Below are positions 280 to 2,103 of a stretch of DNA of 42,997 bases, piece after piece (positions within the stretch are counted from its first letter, which is position 1; every line of letters begins with the position of its first letter). Origin of the DNA: Candidatus Dadabacteria bacterium (GTDB lineage Bacteria > Desulfobacterota_D > UBA1144 > Nemesobacterales > UBA2774); assembly GCA_020849425.1 (NCBI GenBank), contig JADLGH010000070.1:1-42997 (forward strand), read 5' to 3'. Under the pieces are notes generated by a model that did not search any database, had not been told where the DNA came from, and saw only the letters and a list, made by a program, of their open reading frames with translations. The position numbers were made by a program, and so were the translations under genes.

Positions 280-391
280 ACACACGTAGTGTGTTTCTCG
301 GCGAATCACATTCGGAGGCATATGCAGCGGGAGCGCGTTTGGAGATGATAGCGGAAGGCAGCTACTTCGATTGCGTGCGGCTGCGAGCCGC
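280..391. repeat. Hairpin-bearing repeat type B, unit 1
   Basis: Starts with acacac-gta-gtgtgt (280-294), then ...ctacttcga..., and ends with gcggct-gcg-agccgc (377-391). Confidence 0.7.
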
Positions 392-399
392 CGGGCCGG

Positions 400-511
400 G
401 GACACGTAGTGTCTTTTTCGGCATAGCACAGGAGGTGCTAAAATTACGTGAAGCGCGGCTGGTGGCAATGGCAAAGCGCTGCTACTTCGAATGTCAGCGG
501 ACACAGTCCGC
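400..511. repeat. Hairpin-bearing repeat type B, unit 2
   Basis: Starts with gacac-gta-gtgtc (401-413), internal tagcac-aggag-gtgcta (424-440), ctacttcgaa, ends with gcggac-aca-gtccgc (497-511). Lies exactly 120 bp after unit 1. Confidence 0.75.
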
Positions 512-599
512 CTAAAAATCATCGTTCCTTTGCTAAATCCTCCACCGGCCCACAGCCCCAAGTCGGATTTTTAACGCTCATCCGCTCGATTTTCTTAAC

Positions 600-661
600 G
601 CGAATTTTGACGGCCCGGAGGGGTATTGCTGCGCCGCACGAGCGGCTTGCAATATTATGGT
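600..661. repeat. Degenerate interspersed repeat, type A, copy 2
   Basis: Same as 11-72. The loop of the gccgc/gcggc hairpin (633-646) differs (acga versus gcat) while the stem is conserved. Confidence 0.8.
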
Positions 662-695
662 CAAGGAATTCTTGATGGATTGCTGGTGGAAATGG

Positions 696-720
696 ATTCC
701 CTATACAAGCATTAGGGAAT
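696..720. repeat. Inverted repeat attcccta-N9-tagggaat
   Basis: 8-bp perfect arms. A second gattcc-N10-ggaatc pair follows at 735-756. Together they resemble ATTCCC...GGGAAT-type intergenic repeats. Confidence 0.6.
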
Positions 721-769
721 GACAGAAGGGTGGTGATTCCTCGCTCGCTCGGAATCGTTGGGAATGACT

Positions 770-882
770 GATACGTAGTGTCTTTTTTCGGCGTAGCGCC
801 GAAGTTGCTAAAACCACCTGAAGCGCAGCTGGTAGTAATGGCAAGGCGCTGTCACTTCGAATTCCTGCACGCGTGGCGTGCA
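770..882. repeat. Hairpin-bearing repeat type B, unit 3
   Basis: Starts with gatac-gta-gtgtc (770-782; one G.U pair if RNA), internal ttcggcg-tag-cgccgaa (787-803), shares gctaaaa...gaagcgc.gctggt.g.aatggcaa..gcgctg with unit 2, ends with tgcacgc-gtg-gcgtgca (866-882). Confidence 0.75.
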
Positions 883-995
883 CACGTATGTGTGTTTCTC
901 GACGTAGCATAGGCGGAGATATCGACAAGAGGGACCTGCGCTCGTCGATATTGGCAGGGCCGCCGCTACGCCGGATTCCAGCGGACGTTGTCCGC
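881..995. repeat. Hairpin-bearing repeat type B, unit 4 (diverged)
   Basis: Starts with cacac-gtat-gtgtg (881-894), internal atatcgac-N17-gtcgatat (919-951), ends with gcggac-gtt-gtccgc (981-995). Confidence 0.6.
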
Positions 996-1029: not shown

Positions 1030-2103
1030 ATGAACGACAAGAGAATAGTAGTGGCGATGTCGGGCGGAGTGGACAGCACGACGACGGCGGCGCTGCTCAA
1101 GAAAGAAGGCTGGGACGTTATCGGCGTCACCATGCAGCTCCTCGACTACAAGGACGCCGAGGGCGGATGCTGCTCGTTCGACCACGTCATCGACGCCAGG
1201 CGCGCCGCCGCACAGATAGGCATCCCGCATTACGTCGTGAACTTCGTCGACCAGTTCAAGACGCACGTCCTCGGGGATTATATCGACAAGTACAAGTCCG
1301 GGAAGACGCCGATACCGTGCGTCATGTGCAATAAATACGTAAAATTCGACCTCCTCATGACGAAAGCGCTCGAGCTCGGGGCCGCGCGCCTCGCGACCGG
1401 GCACTACGCGCGAATAGTCGAGGAGGATGGACAGCTCGCGCTCAAAAAGGCGCTGGACGAATCGAAGGACCAGTCCTATTTCCTCTACACGCTCACGCAG
1501 AGGGAGCTTTCGAGGCTCATGTTCCCGCTGGGCTCCCTGTCCAAGGAGGAGGTGAGGGGCATAGCTCGCGGGCTCGGACTCATACCCGCCGAAAAGCCGG
1601 ACAGCACCGGTGTGTGTTTCGTCCCGGGCGGGGACTACCGCGAATACCTTGCCGCGCAGGCGAGTCTCGTCCCCGAAGAGGGGGAGATAGTAGACGACGA
1701 AGGCAAGGTTCTCGGGAAGCATAACGGCATATTCTCCTTCACCATCGGGCAGAGAAGGGGCCTCGGCATTGCCGTCGGGAAGCCTGTTTACGTAACGGGC
1801 ATCGAGCCCGGCAAGAACCGCATAGTAGTCGGCGGCCAGGACAGGCTCTACGGGACAAAGCTAGTCGCCGAGAACATAACATGGATTAATGACGGCCACT
1901 TAGACGATACATTTCAAGTAAAAGCCAAGGTCAGGTACAGGCACCGGGAAAGCTCGGCGGAGGTCCACATGAGCTCGGAAACGGACGCCACGGTCGAATT
2001 CCGCGAGCCCCAGAGGGCCATCACGCCGGGGCAGGCCGTGGTTTTCTACAAGAACGACAGGGTGCTCGGCGGGGGATGGATAAAAGAGGTGGTCCGGCAG
2101 TGA
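1030..2103 (+). CDS. mnmA: tRNA-specific 2-thiouridylase MnmA
   Basis: VVAMSGGVDSTTTAALLKKEGWDVIGVTMQLLDY P-loop; PCVMCNKYVKFD and TGVCFVPGG catalytic cysteines; GQRRGLGI. The ORF extends to 988 (TTG); the ATG at 1030 fits family starts better. Confidence 0.95.
   Translation: MNDKRIVVAMSGGVDSTTTAALLKKEGWDVIGVTMQLLDYKDAEGGCCSFDHVIDARRAAAQIGIPHYVVNFVDQFKTHVLGDYIDKYKSGKTPIPCVMCNKYVKFDLLMTKALELGAARLATGHYARIVEEDGQLALKKALDESKDQSYFLYTLTQRELSRLMFPLGSLSKEEVRGIARGLGLIPAEKPDSTGVCFVPGGDYREYLAAQASLVPEEGEIVDDEGKVLGKHNGIFSFTIGQRRGLGIAVGKPVYVTGIEPGKNRIVVGGQDRLYGTKLVAENITWINDGHLDDTFQVKAKVRYRHRESSAEVHMSSETDATVEFREPQRAITPGQAVVFYKNDRVLGGGWIKEVVRQ

Follow-up and report, generated by a model that had tools for sequence, protein, structure and literature searches.

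The four hairpin-bearing units near the start of the window, which is one entire contig (42,997 bp) of the 113 that make up a 2.02 Mb Candidatus Dadabacteria MAG (78% complete), are members of a dispersed, non-coding and modular intergenic repeat family that probably functions much as mobile, non-autonomous palindromic elements of the REP/BIME or MITE kind do. Copies are numerous, lie between genes, share a three-hairpin layout, exchange modules and occupy sites that are empty in relatives. The units lie between genes, in many cases directly after a stop codon, and accumulate with other palindromic modules into mosaic islands; their outer hairpins are exchanged between copies as entire blocks, and a putative trans-acting enzyme may move the repeat by recognising its hairpins in DNA. 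Repeats of this kind are already known, and the novelty lies in the lineage that hosts it, in a unit of three hairpins and in the exchange of whole blocks. It adds to known repeats a high-copy modular palindromic example from an uncultured lineage, seemingly spreading without a REP-type transposase.

The unit of ~112 bp is made up of three successive hairpins: ACAC-GTA-GTGT at the 5' end, a long and imperfect one in the centre and a 6-bp triloop hairpin at the 3' end. The consensus passes from ACAC-GTA-GTGT(G) through a T-rich stretch, the core (TCGAnGTAGC...CACC TGAAGCGCGGCT GGTG...GCTACnTCGA) and a short spacer to the 6-bp hairpin with its three-base loop, and GTAG is found within stems at the 5' hairpin and at each core end (GTAGC...GCTAC). 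The four units of 112-116 bp described in a first-pass annotation of this DNA, all on the forward strand, were borne out, as were their outer and internal hairpins. Unit 1 has the 5' hairpin ACACAC-GTA-GTGTGT (280-294), at a position conserved in the family, a core forming a long imperfect palindrome (295-376) and the 3' hairpin GCGGCT-GCG-AGCCGC, of the GCG/GCT loop type (377-391). In unit 2, GACAC-GTA-GTGTC (401-413) is followed by a core (414-496), with an internal hairpin at 424-440, and by GCGGAC-ACA-GTCCGC, of the ACA/ACG loop type (497-511). Unit 3 opens with GATAC-GTA-GTGTC (770-782), which includes one G.T pair, and continues through its core (783-865), with an internal hairpin at 787-803, to TGCACGC-GTG-GCGTGCA, of the GTG loop type (866-882). 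The last of these overlaps by 2 nt the 5' hairpin of unit 4, CACAC-GTAT-GTGTG (881-894), whose diverged core (895-980) has an internal hairpin at 919-951, where the inner stem is swapped for ATATCGAC/GTCGATAT (919-926 with 944-951) and is still fully paired; the unit closes with GCGGAC-GTT-GTCCGC (981-995). Across the 96 units aligned from this genome and a congener, the trinucleotide 5' of the 3' hairpin (alignment columns 101-103) tracks the triloop (112-114), of which it is often the reverse complement (TGT:ACA, AGC:GCT, AGT:ACT).

Between and around these units lie further modules on the same strand, each of which recurs elsewhere in the genome. The linker GAATTTTGACGGCCCGG...GCGGCTTGCAATAT is present twice (10-71 and 599-660, 87% identical) and, like a linker with GGGAATCC/GTCATTCCC-type palindromes (691-766), is found again in other islands. 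So is a leading hairpin module, CTACTTTTG...CAAAAGTAG, ahead of unit 1 (250-283), while the linker TAAAAATCATCGTTCC...TTTTTAACGCTCATCC (512-598) recurs 3' of other 3' hairpins; both of these have counterparts in the sister genus. Palindromic repeats of the GTCATTCCC...GGGAATCC type and the GAGATTGCCGCG type are intermixed in the same islands, at 691-766 and at many other loci. Outside the repeat, the downstream neighbour is a gene predicted from sequence motifs to be mnmA-like (1030-2103, forward strand). A protein-coding role for the repeat was rejected, as no ORF overlapping an island passes a codon-usage score trained on the 42,997-bp contig.

In 43 kb of sequence, one 6-bp stem closed by a 3-nt loop would attract no notice, and it is the recurring arrangement that counts. 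Taken singly, units 1 to 4 fold only moderately better than shuffled sequences (z of -2.2, -1.0, -0.8 and -3.1, respectively). When RNAalifold was applied to the 96 units, aligned with MAFFT and without reference to structure, all three hairpins were recovered, and equally so on the reverse complement; in an earlier alignment of 63 units, just one of the three, the 3' hairpin, had emerged, along with a short stem. The named structure leaves 81.4% of cells paired, against 28-44% when the partners are slid, a control that flatters this structure because it was taken from that very alignment, and more weight attaches to the alignment made without structure.

Further copies of the units, as the first-pass annotation had anticipated for a repeat family, are present in number. 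A blastn search with positions 270-530 gave 59 matches across many contigs of the genome, an iterated profile search of selected stretches of the genome gave 84 non-overlapping units, and matches to a covariance model numbered at least 101 in the 2.0 Mb genome, with 109 of 587 candidates scored. The same model made 36 matches in the sole congener found and one weak match in each of three sister-genus genomes. A pattern scan of genome contigs returned Ca. Dadabacteria isolate SW_59 and three unrelated matches, about the chance expectation from the length of the pattern. There were no matches in the viral contigs scanned or in the phages and plasmids scanned, an Rfam search of the region gave none up to E=5, and no paper on Dadabacteria repeats was recognised in the literature searched. 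As judged from these searches, the family appears to be clade-restricted. Many islands lie at contig ends of the MAG and the genomes of the genus are incomplete (78% for this MAG, 59% for the congener), such that assembly may have distorted the structure of copies. The position of islands at contig ends implies that short-read assemblies probably underestimate both copy numbers and intergenic content.

All copies checked lie in intergenic DNA and frequently next to a stop codon. Islands, each consisting of one to six units mixed with recurrent linkers and other palindromic modules, are in many cases no more than ~20 bp from such a codon. Where a cluster has gene calls to its left and right (14 cases), the gene pairs are tandem in eight, convergent in five and divergent in one; for comparison, neighbouring genes in the 42,997-bp contig form 30 tandem, two convergent and two divergent pairs, with gene calls being crude and numbers small. 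For the other 24 of the 38 clusters, a gene call is missing on one side, almost invariably on account of a contig end.

The comparison of individual loci with their counterparts in relatives reveals both filled and empty sites, the empty ones being in the congener and in other genera. On contig C52, a two-unit array is absent from an otherwise alignable spacer in the congener; within this diverged spacer, ~90 bp (ACGCCCTTCACCGACTGCACAGGAGCCCATACAGTACTGC...) are identical in the two species (G000 C52, L013; G001 C252, L120). The array on C94 adjoins a neighbouring gene at its stop codon and is absent from the relatives G003 and G004. On C9, a triple array takes the place of the last part of an MFS transporter gene: the orthologues end in ..EDA* or ..EDG*, and here the protein continues into repeat-encoded VHHVHGKPK*; G004 and G010 have a similar lipoprotein gene downstream and no such array. 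The VHHVHGKPK terminus is encoded by the 3' hairpin of the repeat (L038, G000 C9:3150-3216), so this insertion appears to have extended a protein. The C107 locus has units in both species, but these are differing units with differing modules, and only for the unit adjoining the downstream gene does the array on C35 have a clear congener counterpart. Taken together, the five comparisons reveal turnover. For C94 and C9, insertion is the more economical reading, because the outgroups are without the element, and some of the empty sites could be deletions. No consistent direct repeats that might represent a target-site duplication were found at islands. The sole case is C107, where the final 22 bp of the upstream alpha/beta-hydrolase gene (GAATTCATGGAAAACATTTAGG; L012) stand in one copy on each side of the island, a repeat that has a diverged form in the congener (G001 C177, L134) and that no other island possesses. 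Among the possibilities raised by the first-pass annotation, that of a REP/MITE-like mobile repeat is hence the one supported, by the ~100 intergenic copies and by the filled and empty sites.

That annotation had also emphasised that the stems change while remaining paired, and had taken such compensatory change to suggest selection on structure. Covariation was assessed against a null of the R-scape type, in which changes were placed at random on the branches of a FastTree tree with the count for each column kept; as the 60 simulations allow a minimum E of ~0.017, the E values are rough. In the 96-unit alignment, three pairs exceed this null at E<0.05, two of them Watson-Crick: 110-116, within the 3' stem, and 61-95, which joins the apical loop of the core to the position of the outer-stem mismatch and is paired in 98% of units (A-T 68, C-G 19, T-A 5). 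The third, 102-113, links the loop of the 3' hairpin to a base that precedes this hairpin and is paired in only 45%. Covariation above the tree-based expectation is therefore present, but for two Watson-Crick pairs only.

Most of the differences between stems separate a few recurring 3' hairpin types, in which TTC or ATC accompanies a GTG loop, TGT an ACA or ACG loop, and TGC or AGC a GCG or GCT loop. At core identities of 55-85%, the fraction of unit pairs sharing a 3' type is 0.40-0.43, against 0.43 expected at random from the type frequencies, and it is higher only above 85%. This independence of hairpin type from core similarity implies that whole hairpins have been swapped between copies. 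The core of unit 3, for instance, is 93% identical to one on contig C38, yet their 3' hairpins are unrelated; some cores have other modules in place of the 3' hairpin, and some a linker module in place of the 5' hairpin. Within the GTG class, the stems GCGGG, GCACG, GCGCA, GCAGG, GCGGA and GTGGG are all still paired around CGTGG, so some genuine paired change is present too. The core of unit 4 offers a parallel, with an inner stem of another sequence that has kept its full pairing. The observation that stems differ and stay paired was consequently real, and includes paired variants within one type, but it mostly reflects the exchange of whole blocks between types, and selection for compensation base by base survives only in part. 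More generally, apparently compensatory stems may come from hairpin swaps, and covariation among paralogous repeats does not by itself prove a structured RNA. A distinctly unlikely extension is that the hairpins constitute a pairing code for a putative recombinase, which would cut and join single-stranded hairpin DNA and so shuffle cores and outer hairpins; the hints in this direction are the match between triloop and upstream trinucleotide (TGT:ACA, AGC:GCT, AGT:ACT, TTC:GTG) and the pairing of 61 with 95 in nearly all units.

A possible, though less probable, account of the paired changes is that they reflect mutation and not selection, with template switching in quasi-palindromes re-copying one arm from the other, such that stems stay perfect and the repeat is passive. 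This is a documented mutational route by which perfect stems that carry compensatory changes of several bases arise and persist (PMC8794818), and it agrees with the lack of strand preference in the repeat and with the stem variants around the constant CGTGG centre, most of which pair completely, intermediates being few. However, block swaps that alter spacer, stem and loop jointly need exchange between copies and not the re-copying of an arm, the inverted loops that template switching predicts are rare here, and the dispersal of the repeat is left unexplained. The absence of strand preference bears equally on whether the units form a structured RNA, such as a cluster of 3' UTR hairpins that stabilises or terminates transcripts. 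Mismatches within helices are nearly equally G.U (177) and A.C (140), which gives no RNA strand signature; folding energies relative to shuffles are alike on either strand (mean z of -1.23 and -1.31); and, with respect to the genes alongside, units point either way. Selected RNA should favour one strand, hence this equality is read as structure at the level of DNA or a passive property of palindromes, and strand-equal pairing is more in keeping with a DNA element than with an RNA. Proximity to stop codons would accord with an RNA element, as would the predicted intrinsic terminators in the region (four against 1.6 expected), which lie mostly antisense to the units, and a parallel exists in REPs, which Di Nocera 2013 (PMC3733652) describes as being mostly downstream of genes and in many cases plausibly transcribed. 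With no G.U excess and no Rfam match, the structured-RNA reading of the first-pass annotation is disfavoured and can be considered unlikely.

A mobile palindromic element, the preferred reading, invites comparison with known systems. BIMEs are said to be made of REPs, in work attributed to Gilson in 1991, and the clustered intergenic palindromes with linker motifs that characterise a BIME in the general sense are found here. The islands are likewise mosaics of palindromic units and linkers in which modified copies keep their palindromes, as slightly modified REPs within BIMEs do (Nunvar 2010, PMC2817692); they differ in their ~112-bp, three-hairpin unit, in that no RAYT/Y1 was found, and in the exchange of hairpin types against a longer core. 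Resemblances to GTAG/CGTC-tagged REPs (PMC3733652) include GTAG at hairpin bases, CGTC at some core ends, sites between tandem and convergent genes and, for the CGTC REPs, spread without a dedicated transposase; by contrast, such REPs are 20-40 bp with an unpaired tag, and here GTAG is inside stems. None of the REP families listed in the text consulted was recognised as a match, and Dadabacteria are not among the phyla it names. The GTAG motifs, the BIME-like clustering between genes and the precedent of palindrome-keeping modified REPs could all suggest that a RAYT, a Y1 tyrosine transposase, mobilises the repeat as in classical REP/REPIN families, and the Y1 transposase suggested at the outset was sought with PF01797, the profile to which the transposase search was confined. 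It had no matches in this genome or in the congener (78% and 59% complete), in which controls matched, nor in the module-bearing relatives G004, G007, G010 and G012, with a single match in G003; this Y1 search identified no transposase or autonomous parent, and a gene may have been missed given that the genomes of the genus are incomplete. The putative moving enzyme is not a detected Y1/RAYT transposase, and with a unit that is not a single 20-40 bp palindrome bearing an unpaired GTAG/CGTC tag, the repeat works like BIME and MITE repeats but lacks the marks of a REP, making the classical REP/REPIN account very improbable.

Bacterial MITEs such as RUP, NEMIS and ERIC are short, foldable, non-coding repeats with no transposase of their own; the BOX elements of Streptococcus pneumoniae are modular intergenic repeats with exchangeable sub-blocks; and the integron attC site is a long imperfect hairpin with a conserved outer-stem mismatch and a variable inner part. 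The Dadabacteria repeat is like BOX in being modular and intergenic with exchangeable sub-blocks, and is set apart, by description only, through its unrelated host and other anatomy. It shares with attC the long imperfect hairpin, the conserved outer-stem mismatch and the variable inner part; its consensus is without RYYYAAC/GTTRRRY boxes, however, and no gene cassettes or ORFs lie between tandem units. The dispersed copies and the filled and empty sites (C52, C94, C9) are those of a MITE. The likeness extends to the size of 70-300 bp, the foldable non-coding sequence, the position beside genes and the lack of an own transposase described for these elements (see also PMC3733652), but neither a consistent target-site duplication nor a 15-30 bp terminal inverted repeat matching a known IS was found.

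In the sister genus, G003 contains a different element of ~200 bp, with ~11 long copies, which has the same 5' hairpin sequence, an unrelated central hairpin (e.g. TTACGATTGTTA...TAACAATCGTAA) and the 3' hairpin GCGGGTG..CACCCGC. The leading hairpin module of this element also occurs on its own, scattered through G003, G004, G007, G010, G012 and both genomes with the ~112-bp unit, and its CTAAAAATC module is dispersed through the genus of G003. The presence of the layout and modules in both genera implies that they are older than the genus, with a replaceable core. A leading hairpin precedes many units (250-283; L181-L191), reading CTACTTTT...AAAAGTAG here and, in the sister genus, CTTCTTTT...AAAAGAAG or CTTCTTTG...CAAAGAAG, so the sequence of its stem differs between genera and the pairing is kept. 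The exact GCGGACACAGTCCGC hairpin also occurs alone, without a core, in another genus (L053, G008 C23:6855-6878).
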